Shown here: in pieces, positions 22,213 to 55,034 of the stretch
Position numbering within the stretch: position 1 is the stretch's first letter
Layout of the letters: every line of letters begins with the position of its first letter
NCBI GenBank assembly: GCA_036874045.1
Contig: CM072335.1
Span: forward strand, 9,568,001-9,632,000
Origin: Cymodocea nodosa
Lineage: Eukaryota; Streptophyta; Magnoliopsida; Alismatales; Cymodoceaceae
DNA: 64,000 nt
Reading direction: 5' to 3'
Translations under genes and position numbers: made by a program
The notes under the pieces: generated by a model
Databases searched by the model: none
The model's input: only the letters and a program-made list of their open reading frames with translations
Told to the model about the DNA's origin: nothing

Positions 22213-23368
22213 TTGCAAAATAAATTAAGAACAACTTTTTCTTAGTACCCTATGTTGTTGAGGACCAAGTTCATTAAACACATATTTTTTCTTTTTGTTT
22301 AAAAGCAGTTTAACTTTATCATTTACATTCTTATTAGTTGTAAGTACTATTAATTTATCATTAGTATCATACTTACTTATAGCTTTATTGCTCTTATAAT
22401 CATTCTTTTTGTTTTCAAATGTAGTATAACCAAGACCAAACCGATTTTTATCAGATGTTAATTTATTTTGGTCTTGCTCATACATTTCAGTAATTTCATA
22501 CTAAGATTTTGTACTTGTATTTGAATTTTCAGTACATATAAAATCTTTTTCTATATAAGAATTTTCAGATTTATCACATGCAAAATGAGTAATTGGTCTA
22601 ATACCAATGTTTTGAATTACATGCTCGGGTTTCTGAATTTTCAGTCTACTACAATTGTCTAAAATTTTAGAAACATTAGAAACTGAATTTCCAAAACAAG
22701 AAATAAGATTTTTAGAAACATTAATAGTCATGTTAGAAGTACATTTAGACAAATCATATTGATTTATATTATTACTACATGATTCATCCCTTGAATTACA
22801 TACTTCTACGTATTTATTACCTTGTTTCATGATAAAAGGAATTTTAGTCCTATATTTACTTGAACTGCAACTAATAAATCCTTTATTGGCTTGAGGTTCA
22901 GGATATTCAAGATAATCAAATCCTAAGCCAATTTATATGACACTGTAGGGGTACTAGTTAGTTTGTTTGAGTTTGACTTAAATTCCATTTCTCAATGGTA
23001 GAATTTAAATCTAGCTCTCTCATTTTTAATTTATCAATCTCTGACTCAAGATCATTTATATTGTTTCTCAACATTTCATTTTCAGATTCTATCTTTAACT
23101 TTTCAGCATTTATATTTTGTATTTGTTCATGCAAGATACATTCATTAAATCTAAATTTATGCAAATCTCTAGCTTGATTTTCATTATCACATTTAAACTT
23201 TTCTAAAGTAGTAGACAGGAAACAATTTTCTTCTTCCACAATGGATAAAGAGTTTCTCATATTCTTATTTTCTAGTTTACAACCTTTAAGTTTTTGTAAT
23301 AATGCATGATAAGCACATAATAATTCATCAAAGTTAAAATCTGAATAATTTTCAGGATCAGATATTAC
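22213..23368 (-). other. Retained GT-AG-type intron / Gag coiled-coil tail, A2
   Basis: On the minus strand the exon ends ...TTTGAG and the segment begins GTAATATC at 23368. The far end reads TTTATTTTGCAA before GAGGAAACAAC (22212), where A1 has TTGCAG. The acceptor AG is therefore mutated to AA in A2. The 1156-base segment encodes the Gag coiled coil (22958-23500) and the tail ending with an in-frame TAA just before the acceptor. A3 lacks exactly this segment. Confidence 0.75.
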
Positions 23369-24450
23369 CTCAAACTCATCTACCATGAAGCACACATGAG
23401 CAACGTCTTCTAACTCTGATTCTTCTTCTGAATGTGAAGATTTTGATGATGATTCCTCAAATTCAGACTCTTCAAACGTATCATCCCAAGTGACCATCAA
23501 AGCCTTTTTCTTGTAAAACTTTTTTTGAGTTTTTTAAGCCGTCTTCTTCTAATTTGTCCTACTATGCTTTTCATTTTTCCTTATAGGACAATCTAGAGAA
23601 AGATGTCCAGGCTTCTTGCAGTTATAACATACATACTTTTTGGATGAAGAATTCTTGTCATTCAGTGATCTTGATGTTGAAGGCTTATCATTTTTGTTCC
23701 TTTGTTGTTTCCTAGCTTTCCATGCTTTCTTAAATTTCCTAGTCAGCAAAATCAAATCCTCGTCAAAATCAGTGGATATATCAGAATCTGAATTAATTTC
23801 AAAAGCTATTTCTTTCTTCATTTTTAGTTTGTTGTGACTCAGTGATTCATTTAATTGAACTTCATAAGCAGTTAAGTTTCTTATAAGTTCATTCATGATA
23901 TAAACATTTAAATCTCGTGATTCCTCAATTGATGTTACTTTCTGAGACCATTTAGAACTTAGGAATCTGAGAATTTTCCTCACCAAATCCTTCTGTTCAA
24001 AATTCTTTCCTAAGCATTTTAAAGAGTTTATAATATCAAGAAATCAGGAAAACATCTTAGAAATACTTTCGTCTTCATGCATCTTAAAGAGTTCATACTT
24101 ATGAATTAACATGTTTATCTTAGTCTCTTTAACTTGAGAAGTACCTTCATGTGAAACTTCTAATGCATGCCACACCTCATAAGCAGATTTATAAGCCGAC
24201 ACTTTACTGAATTGTTCATAACTCAATGCACAAAAGAAAATATTTAAGCCCTTAGCATTCAGAGTTTCATTTTCTTTTTCAGTAATTGTCCAAGTATTAT
24301 AAGGGGTAGATAAAAGAGTATATGGTTTAGAAATCATGAACCGCAACTTATGATCTATACTTTGAAGAAAAACTGTCATCCTATATTTCCAATATTCAAA
24401 ATGTATTCCATCAAATAAAGGAGTACGATTAAGATTTTAGCCTTCATACA
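23369..24450 (-). pseudogene. gag: Gag (exon 1) of A2
   Basis: Capsid-forming protein. From right: a Gag start region (NRTPLFDG...YWKYRMTVFLQSIDHKLR), then the UBN2-type Gag core (WHALEVSHEGTSQVKETKINMLIHKYELF, 24379-24044). Next are KWSQKVTSIEESRDLN, a Lys-rich stretch and the zinc knuckle CYNCKKPGHLSLDC (23986-23549), then an acidic Ser/Glu stretch ending VDEFE at the splice donor. Stops and frameshifts at about 24420, 24043 and 23548. The first few codons are lost at the junction with A3. Confidence 0.9.
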
Positions 24451-24509
24451 AAGAAAAATTACCATTTCCCGATAACAGAGTATATGGTTTGGAAATGGTA
24501 ATTTTTCTT
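24451..24509. repeat. Inverted-repeat junction between A2 (-) and A3 (+)
   Basis: Two 19-base arms (24451-24469 and 24491-24509), perfect inverted copies, flank a 21-base spacer. The spacer ends in AGAGTATATGGTTT (24477-24490), a copy of 24315-24328 in the A2 gag nearby. This looks like templated filler from break repair. The A3 gag homology begins at about 24508. Confidence 0.8.
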
Positions 24510-24935
24510 AATTCAGATTCTTATATATCTAGTGATTCTAACGAGGATTTGATTTTGCTGACTAGGAAATTCAAAAAAGCATGGAAAGCTAGGAAACAGC
24601 AAAGGAATAAGAATGATAAACCCTCAATGTCAAAATCACTAAATGACAAGAATTCTTCATCTAGAAAGTATGTATGTTACAATTGCAAGAAACCTAGACA
24701 TCTTTCTCTAGATTGTCCAATAAGGATAAATGAAAAGCAAAGTAGGACAAATCAGAAGAAGATGACTCAGAAAACTTAGAAAAGGTTTTACAAGAAAAAG
24801 GCTTTGAAGTTCACTTGGGATGACATGTCTGAAGAGTCTGAATCTGAGGAATCATCATCAAAATCTTCACATTCAAAAGGAGAACAAAAGTTAGAAGACG
24901 TTGCTCATGTGTGCTTCATGGTAGATGAGTCTGAG
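24508..24935 (+). pseudogene. gag: Gag fragment joined in frame to protease (spliced), A3
   Basis: Covers the Lys-rich stretch, zinc knuckle CYNCKKPRHLSLDC (a G-to-R change next to His) and the acidic Ser/Glu stretch up to VDESE at 24935. The next codons are EETISKW of the pol start, in one open frame (24804-25073). The coiled coil is missing precisely between donor and acceptor. Both GAG triplets at the junction are kept, which fits splicing and not a deletion between GAG repeats. A stop lies at 24777-24779. Confidence 0.85.
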
Positions 24936-37393: not shown

Positions 37394-37555
37394 TTCTTGA
37401 ATCACATCATCTAGCATATCTCCTTCATCCTCTAGAAAGTTTATAGTATGTAACAACATTTCTAACTCCTCAAACTTTTCTGGTTTGAAAATGTTTATTT
37501 GAGTATCCTCATTATCACATGCTAACTTCATCACTCTACTTTTACAATTTATAAC
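37394..37555 (-). pseudogene. Gypsy C1 protease-RT linker, between A2 and B insertions
   Basis: A 160-base island of C1 coding sequence, minus strand: MKLACDNEDTQINIF...FLEDEGDMLDDVIQEE. It is in frame with the protease end at 54681 across B and with the RT side at 13096 across A2. The acidic, low-complexity linker is usual between gypsy protease and RT. Confidence 0.85.
37551..37555. repeat. Target-site duplication ATAAC, left of B
   Basis: ATAAC directly before TGTTAGGAATTT (37556); the second copy is at 54676-54680, directly after the last B LTR. It shows that B1 (with B2 inside it) is one insertion unit in C1. Confidence 0.92.
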
Positions 37556-38766
37556 TGTTAGGAATTTAATTTTGATGATATATGCTTTATTAACGTTTTT
37601 AAATAAGTCTATATAATATTCTCTAAGTATAATAGTCAACAGATTATCAAAAAGTTTCATTTTTATGTCGGATAAATTAAAGATTTCCAAAAAGTTAAAT
37701 TTGCAATAGTTAAACTTTAAAATAGTTATCGTTTTGGATAGTTAATGTTTTGTTTTTGTTGAATACTTTATGTTAAAAACTCGTATAATTAAGTTATCTG
37801 CACATGTGTTTTTAATGTTTTAAGTTGTCATGTGTTTTCCATGTGCGTTCGGTAATGAAAAATAGAATAGTTAGATAACTGTTCGAGTTTTTATACGCAT
37901 GGATAGATAACTATTTGAGTTTTATAAAAGGACTAACAAACAGATAAGTTTCTTTGTTTAGTCACGTATTTTGCAAGTGCAAAAACTCGAAGAGTTAAAG
38001 GATAAGTGTTCTAGTTTTTACAGGACTTAAAGGATAAGTGTTCGACTAAATCGAAGACTTAGAAGATATTCTACAAGACTCTAGGAAGATAAAGTTTCGG
38101 TGAATCTACGAAGTGGAGATCATGGAAATTCAAAATGTTAGTGGAGAAAGTGGAAATTCAAATAGAAAGTAATTTGGATTAAAGAGAAAATTAGTACGTG
38201 GATTATAGATTAAGTGGATGAATATGCTGAACGTGAAAGACAACAGAGTTCGACTACAAATAGAGAGTACGAGCTACATTACAGTAGAGGATCCCAATCT
38301 CGAAAACCAAGTCTGAATATTCAATCCGGATCCCTAATTGAAAAGTTAAGTTTGAATATTCATATTCTGAAAAGTTCTCCAACATCAAAAGAAGTTCAAA
38401 ATTCCAAGCAATTTCAAAAAAGGAGCTGCAAAAGTAAGAAGTCTGGAAATTTGACAACTAGAGAAGAAGAGATATAAAAGCTGAGCAAAGACAAAGAAAG
38501 AAGTTGAGTGCGTAAAGATCAAGTTTTATACAATTCAAAATTAGTTTTCAATAAGAGCTTTATTGTTATATTCGAATTGTATATCGAACATTTCTGTATC
38601 AAAACCGTCGAAAAGGGAATTGAGTTGAAAGGATATTGTAAATTCTATCCTTACATAAAGAATAGAATTTCATTTACGAGTGTTTTATGCTCTTATTTTA
38701 TCCGCTAGTATTTTAATTACTAAAGACACAATTCACCCTGCCTGTTGTGATATAAACGATCCTACA
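37556..38766 (+). repeat. 5' LTR of B1
   Basis: 1211 bp, TGTTAGGAATTT to GATCCTACA, then the primer site. TATA box TATAAAA at 37923-37929. U3 has GTTAGATAACTGTTCGAG and AACTCGAAGAGTTAAAGG motifs, a variant of the palindrome in A and C. Confidence 0.94.
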
Positions 38767-38931
38767 AACTGGTATCAGAGCATTGATCTTTCACTTATTT
38801 TTGTCAAATTTACTACGCTCTGCTACAACTAGTATTAGGGCACTTAAACTATTAAAAGCATCTAAAAAGCCTTCATTTCTCTATTTAAGAATCAGTTTTT
38901 CCTATCATTTACTTCGAATCATCTGTTTAAA
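38767..38931 (+). other. Primer binding site and leader, B1
   Basis: AAC then TGGTATCAGAGC (38770-38781), the standard initiator-Met tRNA primer site. A partial echo (AACTAGTATTAGGGCACTT) follows near 38828. The leader runs to the gag ATG at 38932. Confidence 0.92.
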
Positions 38932-40005
38932 ATGAATAATTCTGAAATCTTAGTTATGACTAAAGGACAGACCACTAATCGTCCTCCTATGTTCGAATGT
39001 AGCATTTATGGCTACTAGAAATATAGGATAAAAGTATTCTTTCAATCAATTGATTTCAAACTATGGCATATAATTAGCAATCCTATAGTGTTAGTTACGA
39101 CTCCATATGATACTTAGACTTTTGATGAAAATGAGCAAATGACACTGAATAATAAAGGTTTAAACATCTTGTTTTGTGCTTTATCTCATGATCAATTTAA
39201 TAAAGTTTCTGCATATCAAACTACATATGAGATATGGCATGCATTAGAAGTTGCCAACGAAGGTATTAATCAGGTCAAGGAATCTAAGATCAATATATTA
39301 GTACATAAATATGAGCTTTTTAAAATGCACGAAAATGAATGTATCTCTGACATGTTTTCCTGTTTTCTTGAGATTGTAAATTCATTAAAATCTTTAGGCA
39401 AGAAATTCGAGGAAAAAGACTTGGTAAGAAAGATCCTTAGATCTTTAACTAAAATTTGGGCTCAAAAGACAACATCTATTGAAGAGTCCAAAGACTTAAA
39501 TACATATACTCTCGATGATCTAATAGGAAATCTGACAACCTATGAAGTACAACATTTATATCCAAAAGGGAAAAATCTTAGAAGGGATCTGGCTTTTGAG
39601 GCTAATAAAGTCTTAGAAGTCACTAGTGATTCTAACGATGATTTACTATTGTTGATTAGAAAATTTAGAAATCTATTGAAGAAACGTAGGAACTTCAGGT
39701 CAGGAAAGACATCTAGAGATATGGAGAAGAAGTCATTCACGAAAGACAAAAGCATATGCTACAAGTGCAACACGCTGGGTCACTTTCAAACTAATTGTCC
39801 TCTCAACAAAGATAAGAAGAATTCAAGGAGGAATTTCAGGAATAAGAAATTCAGAAAGAGAAGGGCACTTAAAGTGACATGGGATGACTCTTCAACTTCA
39901 CAAAGTGAAGAAGCAAAGGATTCAACATCAGACAATGAATCCTCATCAACATCAGATTTAGAAGAAAATCTGGCAAACGTATGCTTTATGGCAAAATCTA
40001 GTGAG
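38932..40005 (+). pseudogene. gag: Gag of B1, joined in frame to protease (spliced form)
   Basis: MNNSEILVMTKGQTTNRPP start, YR.KVFFQSIDFKLWHIISNP, Gag core (FNKVSAYQTTYEIWHALEVANEG...), zinc knuckle CYKCNTLGHFQTNC, basic stretch, acidic Ser-rich stretch ending AKSSE at 40005. The next codon is VHKSK of pol in the same open frame (39139-40410). The 955-base coiled-coil segment of B2 is absent exactly at the GT-AG borders. Three early stops, TAG in place of TGG at about 39017 and 39117 and TAG in place of GGT-side sequence at about 39000. Confidence 0.9.
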
Positions 40006-42055
40006 GTACACAAATCAAAACGGATAATGGATAGTGGAGCATCCAGCCACATGATTGGAGATATACGATTACTTATAGAAATAACAAAGACCATGAATGG
40101 ACAAGTTACCTTTGGAAATAAAAGCAAAACAAATATCCTTGGGTCAGGCAAGGTTCAGGTAACTGAGAAATGCTTTATAAATGATGTCTTATTAGTGAAA
40201 AACTTAGGTTTTAATTTGAGTCTTCCTGTTTTAATGAAGATTTATAGAGTAATTTTTGAAAAAGATTCTTGTAAAATTATGGACATGTCTACAAACGAAA
40301 TTTTATTCACTACATACAAGAAAGGATCTGTTTGTATTTTAAATTTGCCTTCTGATATTATTAAAGGCAATGCTTGCTTAATTGCAAAATCAGATGAAGT
40401 CATTTTATGACATAGAAGGCTAGGACACTCAAACTTAAAATTATTACAAAAGCTGTCTAAAAAGAATCTAGTTAGAGGTTTACCTAGTATTAAGTACTTG
40501 AAAGAGTTTATGCGTGATGCATGTCAACTAGGTAAATTACATAAAACATCCTTTAAAAGCTTAAATGAAATAACAAGCAAAAGAGTATTAGAACTAGTGC
40601 ATATGGATTTATTTGGACCTACTAGAACAACCAGTCTAGGAGGTAAACATTATGCTTTTGTACTAGTTGATGACTATTCTAGATCTACTTGGGTCTATTT
40701 TCTAGCTAATAAAGCTGAAGATTTTGAAATATTTAAGATATTCTGTAATAAAGTTCAGAATGAGAAAAATGTTAAAATTTAAAAACTTAGGAGTGATCAT
40801 GGTATAGAATTTGATAATGATCAAATGGACACCTTTTGTGAAGAATTAGGCATAGATCATAGGTACTCATTTCCAAGAGCTCCTTCACAAAACAGGATAG
40901 TAGAACGTAAAAACAGATCACTTCAGGAAATGTTCAGAACCATGTTAAATGAGAATAAGTTACCACTATTTCTTTGGGCAGAAGTAATTCGTACAACATG
41001 CTATGTTATAAATAGAGTACATCTAAGACCAATTTTAGATAAAACTCCTTATGCGATATGGTATAACAACGTTCCTAAAATAAGTTATTTAAAACCCTTT
41101 GGCTGTAAGTGTTTTATTTTAAACACTAAGGAACGAAGAGATAAATTTAGAGCCAAATCAGATGAAGGTATTTTTGTTGGTTATTCCACTAGAAGTAAGG
41201 CATATAGAGTTTATAACAAATCAACAAAAATCATTGAGGAAACCCTACATGTGAAATTTCATGAAAATTCTCATTTGGATTTAAGACATGCTGAAAACTT
41301 TGATTTAGAAATTCTCCCAGAAATAGTACCAAATGATGTTGACAGAGAAATTGAGAGATTATCTGATGGAATAAGAAATTTAAATTTGAATGATGAAAAT
41401 TTAGAAGAAAATAATGTCATACCTATAGAAAATGTGGAACAATATAGAAGTTGGCGTTATACTTCATCTCATCCTATTGTTCAGATAATAAGCGATCCTA
41501 ATCAAGGAGTTAGGACTCGGTCATCAGTAGTCAACATCTGTGGTGCTTATTCATTTGTTTCTTTACTAGAACCTAAGAAAATTGAAGATGCCTTTGAAGA
41601 TGAATTTTGGTATTTAGCTATGCAAGATGAGCTAAATCAATTTAAAAGAAATGAGGTATGGGATCTAGTTCCACCACCTGAAAATTAGTCCATAATAGGA
41701 ACAAGGTGGGTATTTAGAAACAAAGTAGATCAAGATGGACATATAGTTAAAAATAAAGCTAGATTAGTTGCTCAAGATTACAAGCAAGAGGAAGGACTTG
41801 AATATGATAAAACATTTGCTCTTGTTGCTAGACTAGAATCAATACGAATTTTGTTAGCATATGCTTGTTATATGGATTTCAAATTATATCAAATGGATGT
41901 TAAGATTGCTTTTTTAAATGGATATATAAAAGAAGAAGTGTATGTAAAACAACCTCCAGGTTTTGAAGATTCAAAACATCCTGAGTATGTTTACAAGCTT
42001 AAGAAGGCACTATATGGCCTTAAACAAGCTCCTAGGTCTTGGTATGAAAGATTAT
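40006..42055 (+). pseudogene. pol: Copia pol, B1, cut by B2 in RT
   Basis: Protease MDSGASSHMIG, integrase zinc region and core (DLFGPTRTTSLGGK, LRSDHGIEF, NRIVERKN), IN tail EGIFVGYSTRSKAYRVYN, RT to [16 protein letters not shown] at 42055. Breaks: TGA for Trp at about 40408, TAA at 40780-40782, TAG at about 41686. The TAA and the TAG are shared with B2. RT palm, RNase H, post-pol ORF and the original 3' LTR are missing. Confidence 0.92.
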
Positions 42056-43262
42056 TGTTAGGAATTTAATTTTGATGATATATGCTTTATTAACATTTTT
42101 AAATAAGTCTACATAATATTCTCTAAGTATATTCTCTAAGTATAACAATTAACAGATTATCGAAAAGTTTCATTTTTATGTCGGATAAATTAAAGATTTT
42201 CGAAGAGTTAGATTTGCAATAGTTAAACTTTCAGATAGTTAACGTTTCATTTTTATCAAATACTTTATGTTAAAAACTCATATAGTTAAGTTATCTATAC
42301 GTGTGTTTTTAATGTTTTAAGTTGTCATGTGTTTTCCATATGCATTCGGTAATGAAAAATAAAATAGTTAGATAATTGTTCGAGTTTTTATACGCATGGA
42401 TAGATAACTGTTCGAGTTTTATAAAAGGACTAACGAACAGATAAGTTTCTTTGTTTAGTCATATGTTTTGTAGGTGCAAAAACTCGAAGAGTTAAAGGAT
42501 ATGTGTTTGAGTTTTTACAAGACTTAAAGGATAAATGTTCGACTAAATCAAATACTTAGAAGATATTCTACAAGACTCCAGGAAGATAAAGTTTTGGTGA
42601 ATCTACGAAGTGGAGATCGTGGAAATTCAAGATGTTAGTGGAGAAAGTGAAAATTCAAATAGAAAGTAATTTGGATTAAAGAGAAAATTAGTACATGGAT
42701 TATGGATTAAGTGGATGAACATGTTGAACGTGAAAGACAACAGAGTTCGACTACAAATAGAGAGTACGAGCTACATTACAGTAGGGGATCCCAATCTTGA
42801 AAACCAAGTTTGAATATTCAATCCGGATCCCTAACTGAAAAGTTAAGTTCGAATATTCATATTCTAAAAAATTCTCAACATCAAAAGAAGTTCGAAATTC
42901 CAAGCAATTTCAGAAAAGGAGCTGCAAACATAAGAAGTCTAGAAATTCGACAACTAGAGAAGAAGAGATATAGAAGCTGAGCGAAGACAAAGAATGAAGC
43001 TGAGTGTGTAAAGATCAGGTTTTATACAATTCAAAATTAGTTTTCAATAAGAGCTTTATTGTTATATTCGAATTGTATATCGAACATTTCTGTATCAAAA
43101 TCGTCAAGAAGGGAATTGAGCTGAAAGGATATTGTAAATTCTGTCCTTACATAAAGAATAGAATTTCATTTACGAGTGTTTTGTGCTCTTGTTTTATCTA
43201 CTAGTATTTTAATCACTGAAGACATAATTCACCCTACCTATTGTGATATAGACGATCCTACA
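42056..43262 (+). repeat. 5' LTR of B2
   Basis: 1207 bp, TGTTAGGAATTT to GATCCTACA. TATA box 42420-42426. It starts directly at the broken RT codon of B1. Confidence 0.94.
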
Positions 43263-43427
43263 AACTGGTATCAGAGCATCTATCTTTCACTTATTTTTGT
43301 CAGATTTACTACGCTCTGCTACAACTAGTATCAATGCACTTAAACTGTTAAAAGCATCCGAAAAGCCTTCATTTTTCTATTTAGGAATCAGTTTTTCCTG
43401 TCATTTACTTCGGATCATCTGTTTAAA
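43263..43427 (+). other. Primer binding site and leader, B2
   Basis: TGGTATCAGAGC at 43266-43277; leader to the gag ATG at 43428. Colinear with B1. Confidence 0.92.
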
Positions 43428-44501
43428 ATGGATAATTCTGAAATCTTAGTTATGACTAAAGGACAGACCACTAATCGTCCTCCTATGTTCGAAGGTAGCA
43501 ATTATGGCTATTGGAAATATAGGATGAAAGTATTCTTTCAATCAATTGATTTCAAACTATGGCATATAATTAGCAATCTTATAGTGTTTGTTACGACTCC
43601 ATATGATACTTGGACTTTTGATGAAAAGGAGCGAATGACACTGAATGCTAAAGGTTTAAACATCTTGTTTTGTGCTTTATCTCATGATCAATTTAATAAA
43701 GTTTCTGCATATCAAACTACATATGAGATATGGCATGCATTAGAAGTTGCCAACGAAGGTACTAATCAGGTCAAGGAATCTAAGATCAATATGTTAGTAC
43801 ATAAATATGTGCTTTTTAAAATGCATGAAAATGAATGTATCTCTGACATGTTTTCCCATTTTCTTGAGATTGTAAATTCATTAAAATCTTTAGGCAAGAA
43901 ATTCGAGGAAAAAGACTTGGTTAGAAAGATCCTTAGATCTTTAACCAAAATTTGGGCTCAAAAGACAACATCTATTGAAGAGTCCAATGACTTAAATACA
44001 TATACTCTCGATGATCTCATAGGAAATCTGACAGCTTATGAAGTACAACATTTAGATCCAAAAGGAAAAAATCCTAGAAGGGATCTGGCTTTTGAGTCTG
44101 ATAAAGTCTTAGAAGTCACTAGTGATTCTAACGATGATTTACTGTTGTTGACTAGAAAATTTAAAAATCTGTTGAAGAAATGTAGAAACTTCAGGTCAGC
44201 AAAGACATCTGGAGATATGGAGAAGAAGTCATTTACGAAAGACAAAAGTATATGCTACATATGCAACAGGCCGAGTCACTTTCAAACTGATTGTCCTCTC
44301 AACAAAGATAAGAAGAATTCGAGGAGGAATTTCAGGAATAAGAAATTCAGAAAGAGAAGGGCACTTAAAGTAACATGGGATGACTCTTCAGCTTCACAAA
44401 GTGAAGAAACAAAGGATTCAACATCAGATAATGAATCCTCATCAACATCAGATTTAGAAGAAAATCTAGCAAACATATGCTTTATGGCAAAATCCAGTGA
44501 G
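43428..44501 (+). CDS. gag: Gag exon 1, B2 (open, 358 codons)
   Basis: The most intact coding unit in the window. MDNSEILVMTKGQTTNRPP, GSNYGYWKYRMKVFFQSIDFKLW, the Gag core with YEIWHALEVANEGTNQVKES and EKDLVRKILRSLTKIWAQKTTSIEES, the zinc knuckle CYICNRPSHFQTDC (Gly before His replaced by Ser), KKFRKRRALKVTWDDSS, then acidic Ser/Glu to AKSSE at the donor. Length is an exact multiple of three, so it joins in phase 0 to protease when spliced. Without splicing the frame runs on to TAG at 44592-44594, after a 1-base loss compared with the coiled-coil frame. The product would assemble the capsid. Confidence 0.9.
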
Positions 44502-45456
44502 GTATCCTCTGATCAAAATGCTAATTTTGATAGTTTGACGGATTACTTGTTGAATACAATAGACTGGCTAGAAAATATAAGAAAGTTAAAATAGAAAGAA
44601 AGGGCATTATGAAAATGCTAGATGAATCTGAAAATAAGATTGATTTTCTGAACTCTACATTGAATAAATTTAAAGAAGAAAATCAAAGGCATGCATAGGA
44701 AATTTTAAAGTTCACTGCTATAGAAAGAAAATTACATGTTGATTGTGAAAATTTAATTGCTAATAAGAAGAAAATGATTTGTGAAATTGAAAAATTGGAA
44801 CTGACTATTACTAATTTAAATTCAAAAATTGATGTGTTAAAGATTAAAGTTTGCGATCAAAATGCTATATTAAGTAAATGGAATAATAGTCAAACTATAA
44901 CAAATGAACTTAGTAGTAAAATATCAAATGTAGAAAAATATGGTATTGGCTTACATGATGCATCTTCTGAAAATTATATATTGCATGATGGTACTGCTAA
45001 TTATAATGTCTTTATTTCCAGTACTAAGAATAATAGAAGAAAAACTATTCCATGTGTGATTAAAAAGGGAGATAAATATATGCAAATTGATAAAATGCAG
45101 CATATAAATGATAGCACATGATGCAAGAATTTCAAAAGAAATCTTCAAAAGAGTCAAGCTAAGACATTTGAGAATTTTAATATTCTTGATCAATTTTCTT
45201 CATATTTAAAGAATATCAGATATTGGAATCAGAAATCAAATAATGTCAGAAATGAAAATTTCAACTCTAGTATACATAAAGATAAATGTTCTGATAATTA
45301 TAACACTAAGAGAAAGAAACACAAGAATAATTATCAGAAAATAGAAAAGTTGAAGTTTAAAAATATTGAGAATTTTGATATGACTCTCTCTAAAATTCTT
45401 GGACCCACTTAAAAATGGGTTCCAAGAGATAAAATCTCTTTTTGATTGTTTTGTAG
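44502..45456 (+). other. Retained GT-AG intron encoding the Gag coiled-coil tail, B2
   Basis: Donor GAG|GTATCCTC at 44501/44502; acceptor TTTTTGATTGTTTTGTAG|GTACAC at 45456/45457, with a good pyrimidine tract. 955 bases. It encodes a heptad-rich Gag tail (KIDFLNSTLNKFKEENQ, EIEKLELTITNLNSKIDVLK) and a WVPRDKISF end with TGA at 45443-45445, just before the acceptor. The tail is read in frame 2 and protease in frame 1, so read-through cannot link them; splicing can. B1 shows the spliced junction. Damage: the frame slip near 44566, a TAG near 44698 and a TGA at 45119-45121. Confidence 0.85.
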
Positions 45457-48400
45457 GTACACAAATCAAAATGGATAAGGGATAGTGGAGCATCCAGCCA
45501 CATGACTGGAGATATACGATTACTTATAGAAATAACAAAGACCAAGAATGGACAAGTTACCTTTGGAAATAAAAGCAAAACAAATATCCTTGGCTCTAGC
45601 AAGGTTCAGGTAACTGAGAAATGCTTTATAAATGATGTTTTATTAGTGGAAAACTTAGGTTTTAATTTATTGAGTGTTCCTGTTTTAATGAAGATTTACA
45701 CAATAATTTTTGAAAAAGATTCTTGTAAAATTATGGACATGTCTACAAACGAAATTTTATTCACTACATACAAGAAAGGATCTATTTGTCTTCTAAATTT
45801 CCCTTCTGATATTATTAAAGACAATGCTTGCTTAATTGCAAAATCAGATGAAGTCATTTCATGGCATAGAAGGCTAGGACACTCAAACTTAAAATTATTA
45901 CAAAAGCTGTCTAAAAAGAATCTAGTTAGAGGTTTACCTAGTATTAAGTACTCGAAAGAGTTTATGTGTGATGCATGTCAACTAGGTAAATTACATAAAA
46001 CATCCTTTAAAAGCTTAAATGAAATAACAAGCAAAAGAGTATTAGAACTAGTGCATATGGATTTATTTGGACCTACTAGAACAACCAGTCTAGGAGGTAA
46101 ACATTATGCTTTTGTACTAGTTGATGACTATTCTAGATTTACTTGGGTTTATTTTCTAGCTAATAAAACTGAAGTTTTTGAAATATTTAAGATATTTTCT
46201 AATAAAGTTCAGAATGAGAAAAATGTTAAAATTTAAAAACTTAGGAGTGATCAAGGTATAGAATTTGATAATGATCAAATGGACACCTTTTGTGAAGAAT
46301 TAGGCATAGATCATAGGTACTCATTTCCAAGAGCTCCTTCACAAAATGGGATAGTAGAATGTAAAAATAGATCACTTCAGGAAATGTCTAGAACCATGTT
46401 AAATGAGAATAAGTTACCACTATTTCTTTGGGCAGAAGTAGTTCATACAACATGCTATGTTATAAATAAAGTACATCTAAGACCAATTTTAGATAAAACT
46501 CCTTATGAGATATGGTATAACAGGGTTCCTAAAATAAGTTATTTAAAACCCTTTGGCTGTAAGTGTTTTATTTTAAACACTAAGGAACGAAGAGATAAAT
46601 TTAGAGCCAAATCAGATGAAGGTATTTTTGTTGGTTATTCCACTAGAAGTAAGGCATATAGAGTTTATAACAAATCAACAAAAATCATTGAGGAAACCCT
46701 ACATGTGAAATTTCATGAAAATTCTCATTTAGATTTAAGACATGCTGAAAACTTTGATTTAGAAATTCTCCCAGAAATAGTACCAAATGATGTTGACAGA
46801 GAAATTGAGAGATTATATGACGGAATAAGAAATCTAAATCTAAATGATGAAAGTTTAGAAGAAAATAATGTCATACCTATAGAAAATGTGGAACAACATA
46901 GAAATTGGCGTTATGCTTCATCTCATCCTATTGATTAGATAATAGGCGATCCTAATCAAGGAGTTAGGACTCGATCATCAGTAGTCAACATTTGTGGTGC
47001 TTATTCATTTGTTTCTTTACTAGAACCTCAGAAAATTGAAGATGCCTTTGAAGATGAATTTTGGTATTGAGCTATGCAAGATGAGCTAAATCAATTTATA
47101 AGAAATGAGGTATGGGATCTAGTTCCACCACCTGAAAATTAGTCCATAATAGGAACAAGGTGGGTATTTAGAAACAAAGTAGATCAAGATGGACATATAG
47201 TTAAAAATAAAGCTAGATTAGTTGTTCAAGGTTACAAGCAAGAGGAAGGACTTGACTATGATAAAACATTTGCTCCTGTTGCTAGACTAGAATCAATACG
47301 AATTTTGTTAGCATATGCTTGTTATATGGATTTCAAATTATATCAAATGGATGTTAAGACTGCTTTTTTAAATGGATATATAAAAGAAGAAGTGTATGTA
47401 AAACAACCTCCAGGTTCTGAAGATTCAAAACATCTTGAGTATGTTTACAAGCTTAAGAAGGCACTATATGGCCTTAAACAAGCTCCTAGGTCTTGGTATG
47501 AAAGATTATCTAAATTTCTTATGGAAAAAGGGTATTCTATAGGAAAGGCAGATCACACTCTTTTTATCAAGAAGATCGAAAAAGATATATTAGTAGTTCA
47601 AATCTATGTAGATGACATCATATTTGGAGCAACAAATGATAAGTTAGTTGAGTCCTTTTCGAAAGACATGACTAATCAATTTGAAGTGAGTATGATGGGT
47701 GAACTATCATTTTTCCTAGGCTTACAAATTAAGCAAGTAGATCAAGATACTTTTATTTCACAAGAAAAATATACTCAAGATTTATTAAAGAGGTTTGGTT
47801 TAGACAACACTAAAACAAAGAATACACCAATGAGTACTATCACCAAGTTGGATAAAGATGACTCTGGAAAAACTGTAGATGTAAAACAATATAGAAGTAT
47901 GACTGGTCCATTACTCTATTTAACAACTAGCCGACCAGATATTATGTTTAGTGTGTGTACTTGTGCTAGATATCAATCTAATCCTAAGGAATCACACCTA
48001 CTGGCTGTTAAATGAATTTTTAAATATCTATTAGGAACCATCAATTTCGGACTGTTTTACTTTAAACACAGTTATTTAAACTTAGTAGGTTATAGTGATG
48101 TTGATTTCGCAAGATGTAAGTCTGAAAGAAAAAGCACCAGTGGCACTTGTCAATTGTTAGGTAATTCTTTAGTGTCATGGTTCAGCAAAAAGCAAAATTG
48201 TGTAGCATTATCTACAACTGAAGCTTAATATATAGCTACTACACTTTGCTGTGCTCAAATCCTGTGGATCAGACAAACCTTAAAAGATTTTAATTTAGAC
48301 TATGAACCAACTAAGATTTTCTATGATAGTAGTTCTGCAATAAGTTTGTCTAAAAATCCTATGTTACATTCATGAGCAAAACATATAGAAGTTCGACATG

Positions 48401-48555
48401 ATTTTTTAAGGGATAATGTTATAAAAGGAAAAATAGTATTAAATTTTGTTCCTACCACAAAACAATTAGCATATCTATTTATAAAACCCTTAGATGAAAA
48501 TACATTTTCAAAATTACGATTAGAACTTGGTATCTGTAGGTTATCTGATGTTTAA
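45457..48555 (+). pseudogene. pol: Copia pol (protease to RNase H), B2
   Basis: Protease IRDSGASSHMTG, zinc region RRLGHSNL...CDACQLGK, integrase core DLFGPTRTTSLGGK / LRSDQGIEF / NGIVECKN, IN tail, RT with [28 protein letters not shown] and [12 protein letters not shown] (47605-47640), RNase H to RLSDV with TAA at 48553-48555. The long open blocks are 45502-46236, 46279-46938 and 47305-48015. Stops: TAA 46234-46236, TAG about 46936, TGA about 47068, TAG about 47141, TGA about 48013, TAA about 48227. ER(K)N is EC in this copy, next to the catalytic Glu. Confidence 0.93.
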
Positions 48556-50547
48556 ATTGTCTTGTTCATTGCATTTTGGTTTGTTATAAGGTAGTTTTAG
48601 AATTTAATTTCTTTATTATCAAAAAAAAAAACAAAACAAAAATCTATTTTCGAATTACAGTTTTCTGGTAGTTAAGAATTTATGAAATTCTGAGTTTTAT
48701 TGAAATCAATTTATTTAAGAAAATTCAGAAAAGGTTACTTAAGGAAAGTTAAATTGATTCAATGTGAGTACCAACTATATTTTTGTTACTTATGTATATG
48801 CTATTATAGAGATTTTAATAGGAAAATACATAGAAAGTATGTACTTTTTATTAAAGAAAAGTTATTAACATTCTGTTAGAAAAATTAAGTCTTGCGGTTG
48901 CCTCTAATTTAAATCTACTGTTTTTCTTTTTTGTCTGCAATTACTTGAGTAATTAAGTCCGTTGGGGGATCTTAAACCCTAGTCACTTAAACCAACTGGT
49001 TTGGGATGTGCTGACTGAAAACTCATTTCGCAAGTAATTCAGATTATATTAAAAAAAAAATTACCTGTTCTCACTTGTCATTGAGTAACTAGTTATCTTT
49101 CCCCTAAGCAAGGGATTGTGGTCACGTAAAAAGATGATATTGTGGGAGGTAATGCACAAAGTATATTTATAAAAAAACAAAAAAAACAAAAAAAACAAAA
49201 ATGAGGCAATGTACTCAAGCTTAATTTATTTTTCAAGTGTTATAACAATCTTACCATAATCTGTGCATATAATCCTTGTTATTTTTTTGTTATTATCTAC
49301 TCTTTACACATAATGTACGATATTTATTGTCTTAAGTTTGTGTACTCATTATTGAATTCTTTTAAGTTCTTGAAGGTATATCTCTATGAATTTTCTTTTG
49401 TAAAATGACTAAGATAAAAGCCAGAAAGTCTAAATTGTTAACTCTACAACTTATTTCTGTATTTAATTCAAATTAAAAAAGAGAGAGGAGAGAATCAAAT
49501 CTATTTAAGGCTTAGCATCCTCTTTAAGTAAGCTATTTGACCTTTTAAAGCCAAATCTATTTAGGGCTTGGCAACCCAGTTTAAGTACACCATAGATTCT
49601 TTACACTACATTTAGTAAGGGGAGCAATTTTTCGTATAATAATTCATCTCTTATGAACTATTACATGTTTTCATGAAAGAATCTACATAATTTCAGGAAA
49701 TGCACTTTAATTAAGTACATTTCTGAACTATCAGTGACTTGCAGGCTTTTTAATTCTTAAGTATCTACATTTTCTATTGTTTCACCAAGTTATATTGCAA
49801 GTATCAAATAGTTATGTTTTAAAATATTTAATAGACTATTTTATTATTTCCTGAAGTACACGTATCGAAACCATAATGCATGACTTAAGTGGATTTTTGG
49901 TAAGTTATCTATAACTCTTCGAAATGTGCCTGGGCATCGAAAAGTTATATTTGTAACTGTCTGAACCATCTCTTTATTATAAAACTGCTTAAGTACATGT
50001 GTCGTGATTTGGAAGATTGACTTAAGTTATCTTTCGGAAGGTTATCTGTAACTCTCCGAAATGCACCTGAGCATCGGATAATTAGGTTTATAAGTCTCCG
50101 AAACTTTCTAAACACCTTAAGTTCAAATTGTGCATGTATTGAATTTCACTGCTTTATAATGTCTCAGTTGAAACTCGAACAGTTATGTTTAACTCTTCGA
50201 CTTTTCACACCTATTCCTTCGAGAAACTCAAACAGTTATCATAAGTCTTCGAGTTTTCTCACTTTTCACTTAGCTTGAAGTTATTTTCTTTATACGAACA
50301 GTTACGCTAAGTATTCTACATTTGTTGGTTGTAAAACTTGTACATTTATTGCAAGCACTCGAGTTATTTATCGGTAACGGATCTTATATTTATGATTTCA
50401 ATGATTGAATTCGTTTATTCGTTTATAAACTTGAAGAGTTAAAAATGTTTTACTAACAACCTTTCGTGTTTCTACCTTGGTAAAACCCTAGCTTCACAAT
50501 CTTTACTTCCACTAAGTTCTACAATGCAAAGCGAATATTAATCGACA
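48556..50547 (+). other. Noncoding region between pol and post-pol ORF, B2
   Basis: 1992 bases without a supported ORF. At 49003-49027 is the GACTGAAAACTCATT block shared with family A. A-runs lie at 48621-48640 and 49166-49200. From about 49670 to 50110 it aligns with the gypsy C LTR (59690-60335), including the TTATTATTTCCTGAAGTACA and ATAATGCATGAC stretches and two copies of the hairpin unit. A telo-box AAAACCCTAG is at 50482-50491, 57 bases before the next ATG. Confidence 0.7.
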
Positions 50548-53162
50548 ATGTCAAGACGTGGAAGAGAACGTGGTAGAATGACAAAAGTGTAGAAAAGAGA
50601 GCTGGAAATTCAAAAAATACAAAGTGAAATCAACGACATCTACTCTAGGTACACTTTTTCAAATGAAGTATTACATGAAATCAAAAAAGCTGTTCAAGAT
50701 GAGAAAAATTTATGTTGGAAATTTATTCGCAATTATGCTGAAACACAGTTTAGACTAAAACCGACTGAACTTTCCGCATTGCATTTATGGAAAAGAAATT
50801 TACAACCTAACCCTGCGGTTGTAAGTTCTGGACATGTACTAGAGACATCGGTATAGTCTATCACTTACTACGGAAAGAAGTGAGGACCAATGATCGAAAA
50901 TGCAAATAGGGAATTAGAATCCTTGTATTCCCAACATTATTTTCCCCTAGTTGTTTTAGATGACATTAAATAGTGTATAGATGAACAGAAAACTGCCATT
51001 AGGAAAATGGGCCTTCGAAGTAAAGGACAAAGAGTTTATCAACTCAAAATGGCAGAGGTTGAGAGCTTAAAACTCTATATTCCATTATTACAACCTAGGC
51101 ATCATGATGAAGGACCATCAAGACCCCAGGTGCCTTTAACAGGAGAAATTAAGACAATTTTAGAACCTCCTGAACAACTTGAAACACTGCAGACATATAA
51201 TCAGAGAAAGAAAAAGACAATTGAATATTTTAGACTAACTGTAGGTGTACAAGTAATATTGCAGCAAAAAGAAGAATCAGTGAAAAATGAAAAACTATGT
51301 TCCATTGCAGAAGTTGGACAAACATTTTTGTGAGGAATCCCAACAGATGTGACAAATATTGGCTTACAAGCATATATTCTAAGGTATTGTGTCACATTAG
51401 TACATAATGTATCTTTTCATACAATGGACAGTTTTTCACACAATGCTACAAGCACAAATTCTTTTCTTACGGAAAGAGAGCATGTAGGAAATTTTAATGA
51501 TATATATATAGATGATATCAAATTTGATGATATTTTTGATGACAGACACTGAGTTTATGAATTTTGAAGATATTTCATCTGAAGAGGAATGTATAGATAT
51601 TCTTCCTCTTACTGTATCTCGAACAGAGACTTTTGAATTTTGGTACAGTTGCTTATACTACACTTTATACATATGGCTATGTTTGTTACAGTATGTAGTA
51701 TACTTGTTGATAAATGTATATAATCAACAAAATACACAGTTACAAATAGAATATGATACTACCAATGTCTCACATATACAAACTTCAGAAATACAGGATG
51801 ATTCTATTACACAAACAGATATAAAACATTCTTTCATATAGAGACAATTGTATAGATCAAATATAGACATACATGTTGCTGATATACAGATTATTACAGA
51901 GACTGTTGCTAGTGAAATGTTTCCAGAAGAACACACAGAAAAATTTTAACAGATTATTGATACAACAATACCAGATACTTCAGACATTTATAATAGTTTT
52001 TTATGGCAATTCCACCAGTTCTAAAAGATCTGAAAATTTAGATGCTATTGATAATTTTGAAACAAGTCCCATATCAGAACATCATGACAGGAAAATACAT
52101 AATCCTGAACAGAGTTTAGATGAAAATACACTATTATGGTTCAGAAATACTTCTTGTTCTGACAAATTTCAAACATATAAAACTTTTACAATTTTATATT
52201 CAAGACCAGTTAAGTTTGAAGGGATAGCACACATACGAGAACTGTTTGAATTGTAAGGCTTGTTGGCTCTACTTCCACAATAGCCAGACCATCTTGCTAT
52301 ACCAGAACTTATCAGTTGTTTTTACTCAAACTTAAAAGTGGAAGAAGGTATTCCTGTTTCTAATATACAAGACAATGGCATATATTTAACTCTAGATTTA
52401 CTTTATCAAGTACTTGGTCTGAAAAATGGAGTTAAATTATTAGAAAAAAAATAGGTTTATCGATTGGGATGAGACATTACAAGTTTAGCCAAAGATCCAA
52501 CTGCCAACAAACCATTGACATTACTAAATGACTTAAATGGCCAAGCACGTTTTATTGCAAAAATATTGCATGCTACATTGTTTCAGAGGTTTGGTCATGG
52601 GGCAGAAGTTGGCAGATGTTGTCTTTATGCTACATATGCATTAATAAACCATATATAGGTGAACTGGTATGATATTTTTGTTTCTCATATCTTACATTTG
52701 CAAAGTAAATTATTTTATGGTGATACGATTTTGAGAATTGTGGCTAATCAAACAGATATTACACCTTGGCTACAGAAAAGATTAAAGTTAATATCTTTCT
52801 CTACAAAGGAACTCCAAAAATACCAGGAAGCAGATACACCTGTCCTCAGACAACAACAACAATAGAATCGGCAAACACAGTCACAGTAGCAACAACAACA
52901 ATCAACACAATTTACAGAACAATAGCAACATACAGCTATACAACAAGATATACATATAGATATACAACAAGGTATACATACAGAAATACATACAGGTATA
53001 GATACAGACATTCATACTGAATTTTTACAACAACCATCACAAGTTTCTCAAAATGATTTAGATCAAGCATTACTTGATCAGATAAATAGAGTTAGTACAG
53101 AAATTGCTAAGCAAATTTCAGATACTCTGATTGATATTTTTCAAAGACAAAGAGGCTTGTGA
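50548..53162 (+). pseudogene. Post-pol ORF, unknown function, B2 copy
   Basis: ATG 50548 (MSRRGRERGRMTK, basic), stop TGA 53160-53162; about 870 codons. Homologous end to end with the family A post-pol ORF though strongly diverged. The N-terminal domain occurs twice in tandem (IYSRYTFSNEVLHEIKK... and LYSQHYFPLVVLDDIK...KMGLRSKGQRVYQLKMAEV); family A has one. Then come an acidic stretch, the globular domain (52200-52830: IRELFEL, FYSNLKVEEG, QVLGLKNG, QARFIAKILHATLFQRFGH, VNWYDIFVSHILHLQSKLFYGDTILRIVANQ), a Gln/Thr-rich linker (52845-53020) and a C-terminal helix (DLDQALLDQINRVSTEIAKQ). At least ten stops. No membrane segment. Confidence 0.85.
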
Positions 53163-53454
53163 TTATACAAATTATGTATTATATGATTTATTTCTTGTAA
53201 TTTGTAACCACAAATATTATGTCAACTGTTTACTCAATTTAATGTTACGTGATTATTTTTCACAGTTTATGCTTAATCCATAAATTTTATGTATGTTTGA
53301 AACTATTGTTTTGATTAATATATACTTAGTAAGATTTCCCTCCTTACATTTAACTTACTTAACTTATATTTGTTTACTTTTTTATAATGCCAAAGAGGGG
53401 AAGATATAAATTATGTGACTTATTAGGTTTTGACATCATCAAAAAGGGAGAGAT
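53163..53454 (+). other. 3' noncoding region with two polypurine tracts, B2
   Basis: CCAAAGAGGGGAAGAT (53391-53405) and CATCAAAAAGGGAGAGA (53437-53453), the latter abutting the LTR. This is the same doubled PPT arrangement as in family A. No ORF. Confidence 0.8.
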
Positions 53455-54675
53455 TTTTAGGAATTTAATTTTGATGATATATGCTTTATTAATGTTTTTA
53501 AATAAGTCTACATAATATTCTCTACGTATATTTCTCTAAGTATAATAGTTAATAGATTATCGAAAATGTTTATTTTTATGTCGAATAAATTAAAGATTTC
53601 TGAAAAGTTAGATTTGCAATAGTTAAACTTTCGGATAGTTAACATTTAAGATAGTTAACGTTTCATTTTTGTCGAATACTTTATGTTAAAAACTCATATA
53701 GTTAAGTTATCTGCACGTGTGTTTTTAATGTTTTAAGTTGTCACGTATTTTCCATGTGCGTTCGGTAATGAAAAATAGAATAGTTAGATAACTGTTTTAG
53801 TTTTTATACGCATGGATAGATAACTGTTCGAGTTTTATAGAAGGACTAACGAACAGATAAGTTTTTTTGTTTAGTCACGTGTTTTGCAAGTGTAAAAACT
53901 CGAAGAGTTAAAGGATAAGTGTTCGAGTTTTTAAAGGACTTAAAGGATAAGTGTTCGATTAAATTGAAGACTTAGAAGATATTCTACAAGACTCTACGAA
54001 GATAAAGTTTCGGTGAATCTACGAAGTGGAAATCGTGGAAATTCAAAATGTTAGTGGAGAAAGTGGAAATTCAAATAGAAAGTAATTTGGATTTAAGAGA
54101 AAATTAGTACGTGGATTATAGATTAAGTGGATGAACATGTTGAACGTGAAAGACAACAGAGTTCAACTACAAATAGAGAGTACGAGCTACATTATAGTAG
54201 GGGATCCCAATCTCGAAAACCAAGTTTGAATATTCAATTTGGATCCCTAACTGAAAAGTTAAGTTTGAATATTCATATTTTGAAAAGTTCAACATCAGAA
54301 GAAGTTCGAAATTCCAAGCAATTTCAGAAAAGGAGCTGCAAACGTAAGAAGTCTAGAAATTTGACAATTGGAGAAGAAGAGATATAGAAGCTGAGTAAAG
54401 ACAAAGAAAGAAGTTGAGTGCATAAAGATCAGGTTTTATACAATTCGAAATTAGTTTTCAATAAGAGCTTTATTGTTATTTCGAATTGTATATCGAACAT
54501 TTCTGTATCAAAACCGTCAAAAAGGGAATTGAGTTGAAAAGATATTGTAAATTCTATCCTTACATAAAGAATAGAATTTCATTTACGAGTATTTTGTGCT
54601 CTTGTTTTATCTGCTAGTATTTTAATCACTAAAAACACAATTCACCTCCCCTCTTGTGATACAGACGATCCTATA
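53455..54675 (+). repeat. 3' LTR of the B composite
   Basis: 1221 bp. The expected TGTTAGG start is TTTTAGG and the CCTACA end is CCTATA, both single substitutions. The TATA box has decayed to TATAGAA near 53836. It is followed by ATAAC (54676-54680), the partner of 37551-37555. Likely a recombinant of the B2 and B1 3' LTRs. Confidence 0.92.
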
Positions 54676-54680
54676 ATAAC
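54676..54680. repeat. Target-site duplication ATAAC, right of B
   Basis: Second copy; see 37551-37555. Confidence 0.92.
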
Positions 54681-55034
54681 AACCTCTAATGTTGCTAAAA
54701 ATGGCCTTCCCAAAATTAAAGAAGTATCATGATTTTGATGTTTAATTTGTTGGAAATCCAAAATCACAATATCAATAGGATATATGAAGTTTTTTATTTT
54801 AATTAGGACATCCTTTATTTTTCCTCTAAGGTATCTTATACTTCTATCAGTTAATTGAATGACAATCCTAGTTGGGATTAAGCCTTCTAACCTTAATGAT
54901 GCAAATATATCACTAGGTATAACATTTATACCTACACCTAAGTCTATTAAGGTTCTTTCTAGAATGGAATTTCCTATGGTGCATGATATAACAGAGATTC
55001 CTAGATCAGATAACTTTTTAGGAATTTGTGGCAA
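54681..55034 (-). pseudogene. Gypsy protease domain, C1
   Basis: Open on the minus strand from MPQIPKKLSDLG. It has the retropepsin region ERTLIDLGVGINVIP (Asp kept; the usual D-L-G-A is D-L-G-V), LTDRSIRYLRGKIKDVLIKI and LGRPFLAT, the order typical of Athila/Tat proteases. The C-terminal end continues at 37555 past the B insertion. Confidence 0.88.

Follow-up and report, generated by a model that had tools for sequence, protein, structure and literature searches.

The window analysed here, 64,000 nucleotides of the 374.6-Mb genome of Cymodocea nodosa (G000:C1:9568001–9632000), is occupied over much of its length by copia-type retroelements of two families, A and B, which are about 70–75% alike in pol. 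Two adjoining copies of family B, B1 and B2, differ at the border between gag and pol. In B2 a GT-AG stretch lies between gag and the protease region, and in B1 this stretch is exactly absent, as the initial annotation had described. The features of the two borders are listed below; a slash in the sequences of the text marks a border.

43428..44501, plus strand: gag exon 1 of B2 (Retrotran_gag_2), 1074 bases, phase 0
44502..45456, plus strand: predicted GT-AG intron of B2, GTATCC...TTTTGTAG, 955 bases
45443..45445, plus strand: stop codon TGA of the long Gag, 8 bases 5′ of the acceptor TAG
45454..45456, plus strand: predicted acceptor TAG, in the pol frame, kept in 38/39 copies
45457..47509, plus strand: exon 2 of B2, the start of pol (the portion that B1 also has), beginning GTACACAAATC
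38932..40005, plus strand: gag exon 1 of B1, 1074 bases, last bases AGTGAG
40006..42055, plus strand: pol of B1, fused directly to exon 1, ending at the 5′ long terminal repeat (LTR) of B2

The join in B1 reads ...AGTGAG/GTACACAAATC, with AGTGAG at 40000–40005 and GTACAC from 40006, so that exactly the GT-AG stretch of B2 is gone. The initial annotation had the right motif at this join and placed it one base too far to the right (40001–40015). Its statements that exon 1 comprises 1074 bases in phase 0 and that the spliced form reads in one frame from Gag to protease hold, as an open frame of B1 (39139–40410) spans the join and carries the domains Retrotran_gag_2, zf-CCHC and Pol_BBD. Donor and acceptor of B have five bases in common, AGGTA, and the B1 join taken singly could therefore be a deletion by micro-homology.

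The same join recurs throughout the genome. The genome-wide search for B copies that had been proposed at the outset was carried out by pattern matching with up to 3 mismatches, with searches for the reversed patterns as controls. The exact intron-less join was found at 149 places, 60 of them perfect matches, whereas the 3′ border of intron-bearing copies was found at 779; both controls gave 0. B1 had been taken for a single, fixed spliced copy, but it is one of 149 places, which include its near-identical twin L042, 522 kb away, and are scattered on the tree described below. The borders are well kept among 39 aligned intron-bearing copies: the first bases are GT in 38 (GC in one), the last bases are AG in 38 (AA in one), and a stop stands at the position of 45443 in 37. 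The length of the stretch is 956 bases in 24/39 copies and 955 in 7/39.

Some B sequences lie in larger repeats. The B1-B2 region has a near-identical counterpart 522 kb off on the same contig (G000:C1:9085595 and 9089561), which represents a segmental duplication or an assembly duplicate. The B 3′ border repeats every 1690 bases at G000:C19:9076381–9081483, and it occurs at many places 50–110 kb apart on one strand at G000:C2:8748247–9778236; both are tandem or segmental arrays holding part of the element.

How often the stretch was lost in family B was followed on a tree built from exon 1 and the initial 444 bases of exon 2. Both flanks were present in 52 of 70 loci (29 intron-bearing, 23 intron-less), and the 18 incomplete ones were left out; omission of the near-duplicates L002 and L042 left 50 copies, 28 with and 22 without intron. 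The intron label changes 10 times on this tree (10–11 over the bootstrap), with at least five changes on starred branches, and a single clade of intron-less copies is rejected (p-AU 8.5e-7). Three exon sites differ in frequency by more than 0.5 between the intron-bearing and intron-less classes, without any fixed difference. By identity, B1 and B2 are mutual nearest neighbours among the rows, a pairing that is weakly supported on the tree (92/46).

A second exact loss is found in family A, three copies of which, A1 to A3, lie in the window.

24508..24935, plus strand: end of gag of A3, fused to pol without intron at 24935/24936 (GAG/GAGGAAACA)
22213..23368, minus strand: predicted family A intron in A2, donor GAG/GTAATATC, acceptor mutated to CAA
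1..863, plus strand: 3′ part of the predicted family A intron in A1, which starts left of the window, acceptor TTGCAG/GAGG; its donor was observed in L071

At the A3 join, ...GATGAGTCTGAG/GAGGAAACA, the GT-AG stretch homologous to that of A1 and A2, which is longer than in B, is exactly missing. The intron-less join of A was found at 170 places in the genome, 15 with zero mismatch when up to 3 were allowed, and the reversed-pattern control gave 0. The bases common to donor and acceptor are only AGG in A versus AGGTA in B, and a different sequence has been lost at the homologous place. Four further A copies (L097–L100) all have the donor GAG/GTAATATC; an AG acceptor is present in three, L100 having CAA, and TAA precedes the acceptor triplet in three of the four, nine bases off (six in L099). 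In the remaining copy, L097 (G000:C12:8204500–8206100), TAC stands where the Gag stop TAA is expected, and Gag, tail and pol form one open frame of 1527 codons. A tree of family A, with two intron-bearing rows, 2 starred branches, a long branch in L084 and only 10 bases of exon 2 in L074, is uninformative on the number of losses. A2 and A3 lie head to head; at 24400–24530 their opposite-strand gag pieces meet, and a short inverted repeat (AAAAATTACCATTTCC / GGAAATGGTAATTTTT) borders the meeting point.

Exact intron-less joins at many places, their presence in two families and the scattered tree of B together argue for an intron and for reverse transcription of the spliced RNA. Judged solely by the genomic record, the GT-AG stretch is very likely a spliced intron, and spliced RNA of both B and A has very probably been reverse-transcribed into the intron-less copies. 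The initial proposal that the genomic RNA behind B1 had itself been spliced thus gains support from the census and the tree.

The stretch also appears to be coding when it is retained. L013 has 661 open codons from stop to stop, running from upstream of the gag start into the tail (Gag of about 640 codons), and L008 has 544 open codons through the intron, ending in ...GPTQKWVLRDKISF and then a stop. Exon 1 and the tail were correctly placed in different frames in B2; since they share one open frame in L008 and L013, the split in B2 is damage. The retained intron is thus predicted to supply the C-terminal tail of a long Gag, whose stop lies just 5′ of the 3′ splice site. Between A and B, the first half of the tail scores 124 in the Gag frame, the other two frames giving 55 and 41; the second half, with 47 in the Gag frame and 51 in another, is uninformative. 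When the intron is absent, Gag reads into protease locally at 29 joins (one duplicate of 30 omitted), a result that the search motif itself favours, and 50 open codons lie on either side of the join in 22 of the 29. In B, the spliced join is the sole join observed to place Gag and protease in one frame. Splicing is likely to be the route by which Gag-Pol is made.

The arrangement is not restricted to A and B. A genome-wide Gag search gave 12011 first-look candidates, of which 79 were scored, and ten loci were taken further. In families C (L091–L093) and D (L094–L096), the donor CAAGAG/GTATG is present in 6/6 copies, and the Gag stop TGA lies four bases 5′ of CAG/CAA in five of the six, L092 having TAT there. 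One C copy, L093, has CAA in place of the acceptor CAG. The intron measures 538 bases in C and 562 or 565 in D, lengths that put the frame after it at +1 of gag; pol of D resumes in phase 0 after the acceptor, and pol of C was not recognised. The four families of this genome therefore have a common layout of donor, Gag stop and acceptor.

The donor position can be followed in other plants at the protein level. Two protein searches (the best 120 of 180 and the best 120 of 919 matches, overlapping) gave 208 listed Gag relatives. From these, 62 lacking the anchor, 22 of insufficient length, 20 lacking the next block and 12 fused to protease within 70 residues were dropped, and the 92 retained contain 85 distinct linkers. 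Among these listed matches, glutamate, lysine or glutamine (Glu/Lys/Gln) followed by valine occupies the donor position in 83/85 distinct linkers, as compared with a mean of 21 and a maximum of 33 in 2000 shuffles. At the protein level, such residues are compatible with (G/A/C)AG/GT. In ten gene models of Citrus, this part of Gag ends at that Glu and ...KKKKN.WY follows; these are annotations and no proof of splicing. Scans of viral and prokaryote contigs gave no Gag relatives.

B1 and B2 themselves appear to have entered the genome together. The outer features of the pair are as follows.

37551..37555, no strand: left target-site duplication ATAAC of the B1-B2 compound, identical to the five bases at 54676–54680
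37556..38766, plus strand: B1 5′ LTR, TGTTAGG...CCTACA, differing from the two LTRs of B2 by 7.0 and 6.6%
42056..43262, plus strand: B2 5′ LTR, starting exactly at the end of B1 pol
53455..54675, plus strand: B2 3′ LTR, with the polypurine tract AGGGAGAG at 53445–53452 immediately 5′
54676..54680, no strand: right target-site duplication ATAAC

The pairwise divergences of the three LTRs are 7.0, 6.6 and 7.1%; being equidistant, they look as though formed together. The stretch 37551–54680 is probably a three-LTR compound, that is, one insertion of two complementary DNAs (cDNAs) joined by self-integration. The end of one cDNA would have integrated into another, one made from spliced and the other from unspliced RNA, before the single insertion. 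A tandem duplication could also yield such a pair, but the border falls exactly on the LTR end. Insertion of B2 into an older B1 was rejected, as self-comparison revealed no remainder of B1 to the right of 54675 and the matching flanks lie outside the pair.

These observations can be combined into a working model. Families A and B would be large Ty1/copia elements in which a coding intron divides gag from pol. When the intron is retained, a long Gag with its tail would be made, and the unspliced RNA must also serve as the genome of intron-bearing copies. When the intron is removed, gag exon 1 and protease would come into one frame, giving Gag-Pol without the tail. Partial splicing would set the Gag:Pol ratio, with the spliced RNA as the normal Gag-Pol messenger, and occasional entry of that RNA into reverse transcription would yield the intron-less copies. 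The UAG in the pol frame of B, eight bases past the Gag stop, suggests itself as the AG of the 3′ splice site.

Several points weigh against such a model. The B donor, GAG/GTATCC, departs from the plant consensus beyond +3. Within the decayed B copies, the splice sites GT and AG are no more conserved than their surroundings, the mean minor fraction being about 0.04 alike in exon 1, intron and exon 2, and codon-position bias within the intron is weak and mixed. The sites do not stand out because the B copies are old, and the argument is therefore drawn from the census and the comparison between families. The census covered only the exact joins and the intron 3′ border of B, and part of the 779 intron-bearing borders sits in evenly spaced series, so that the intron-less share of B, 149/928 (16%), is only a rough figure. 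The intron label on the B tree is more clustered than chance would give (10 changes versus a shuffled mean of 16.6), and the Gag stop of family A, TAA, is in frame with pol. The last two points also bear on the alternatives. Old elements commonly suffer deletion, and the five and three bases that the borders do share (AGGTA in B, AGG in A) are short direct repeats between which ordinary deletions of DNA, later amplified, could have arisen. Such deletions are nevertheless very improbable as the source of the joins, since they would have had to meet the homologous GT and AG exactly in both families with different common bases and to preserve the frame into protease, and a single origin in B is rejected. 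The clustering indicates that some intron-less copies inherited or exchanged the trait by descent or recombination. Retroelements recombine, and 7/47 inner branches of the B tree are starred; there is a modest chance that one reverse-transcribed spliced RNA per family multiplied through descent and through recombination of RNAs packaged together. The intron-less B1, however, adjoins the intron-bearing B2 in one insertion, and splicing followed by reverse transcription would still be needed in each family, so that the number of events would alter and the mechanism would not.

There are two further alternatives. Ribosomes could produce Pol by recoding on the unspliced RNA (through frameshift, bypass, internal entry or read-through), as passages in two papers propose for Sireviruses (PMC2829016; PMC5009743), and splicing would then be an accident. 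Family A, with a single in-frame TAA between tail and pol, fits this, and read-through is a possible second gag-pol route there; the initial claim that only splicing can link Gag and protease thus has support in B and need not hold in A. In B and D, however, pol is in another frame, B has the second stop (TAG) in the pol frame, and the sites of A, B and D would hardly be expected to have stayed in phase 0 if they were accidental. The sole structure tried near the border, a hairpin 5′ of the acceptor that could act in recoding or splicing, folds no better than shuffled sequence (z-scores −1.1, −0.8 and +0.3; 30, 33 and 120 of 200 shuffles fold equally well or better). Recoding as the source of Pol is unlikely on this balance. 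The intron could also be a facultative one of host style, the relevant product being a short Gag or an effect on nuclear export. Intron retention keeps EVD RNA in the nucleus, according to part of one report (PMC8892269), but the spliced form here continues in frame into protease, which makes that explanation improbable. Splicing as the gag-pol switch is the reading retained below.

A comparable strategy is known from the Ty3/gypsy element Ogre of the Tat lineage, in which, according to passages in two papers, an intron is removed from some of the transcripts, which makes the full polyprotein readable (PMC6317226; PMC3735527). As in Ogre, an inter-ORF (open reading frame) intron lies near the gag-pol boundary, and its removal opens one frame from Gag to Pol, as in the natural joins of A and B; copies of both the spliced and the unspliced form are present in the genome for family B. 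The Ogre intron is located between GAG-PROT and the reverse transcriptase, in an inter-ORF region averaging 274 bp, whereas the present one lies between Gag and protease, measures 0.5–1.2 kb and encodes a Gag tail. The superfamily also differs, as the elements here have a copia-type Gag, with gag_pre-integrs and rve directly after protease. In BARE1 and EVD, which are Ty1/copia, portions of the literature describe splicing as giving a Gag-only message and unspliced RNA as encoding Gag-Pol (PMC3735527; PMC12786077; PMC8892269); spliced isoforms encoding Gag also appear in excerpts of long-read studies of sunflower and triticale (PMC7730604; PMC7765848). A facultative intron at the copia gag-pol border is shared with BARE1 and EVD, but the join here reads into protease. 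The reversed logic noted in the initial annotation thus stands relative to BARE1 and EVD, but it is not new, since Ogre does the same (PMC6317226, in part).

A further resemblance is to Sireviruses. A 2003 study reportedly described a conserved gag-pol boundary in them. The present elements have, like Sirevirus or SIRE-Maximus, a large Gag with a zinc knuckle (zf-CCHC in B1) and a long C-terminal tail (L013), and the primer-binding site TATCAGAGC at 38773 and 43269. Where Sireviruses have the octamer AGGGGGAG plus AT at the 3′ LTR, B2 reads AGGGAGAG AT, with one change and at the right place. In 42000–54700, which is the one decayed copy B2, no exact AGGGGGAG, one variant and no series of identical polypurine tracts before the 3′ LTR were found, and the element is therefore called Sirevirus-like and not Sirevirus. 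Passages of one paper also match in LTRs of about 1.2 kb and in a pol at +1 of gag, as in families C and D; they describe a pol at +1 in many Sireviruses, for which bypass or internal entry is proposed, and an inverted repeat that is conserved at the boundary (PMC2829016). In the same passages, stop suppression in SIRE1 is a matter of pol-env, and it had been wrongly invoked in the initial annotation as a gag-pol device. Production of Sirevirus Pol from a frame unread by Gag is described in part of another paper as an unresolved puzzle (PMC5009743). Recoding is proposed at this border in the Sirevirus literature; splicing is proposed here. By term counts, splicing and introns go unmentioned in a study of selection in Sireviruses (PMC9073684), and splicing at the Sirevirus gag-pol border is unreported in the titles and abstract openings returned by full-text searches, some of which covered only the top of many papers.

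We lean slightly towards the view that, throughout flowering plants, the Sirevirus-like lineage generally uses splicing in place of ribosomal recoding as its gag-pol switch. The boundary of 2003 would then be the 3′ splice site, the donor would be fixed as Glu/Lys/Gln-Val in Gag, the intron would double as the Gag tail, and spliced and unspliced RNAs could be packaged together, as recorded by B1-B2. An intron that is coding when retained would reverse the splicing logic of BARE1 and EVD, and its spliced RNA would leak recurrently into new copies. Sirevirus-type elements are abundant in plants, and a common intron with exact genomic loss would make the puzzle of their Pol an RNA question.

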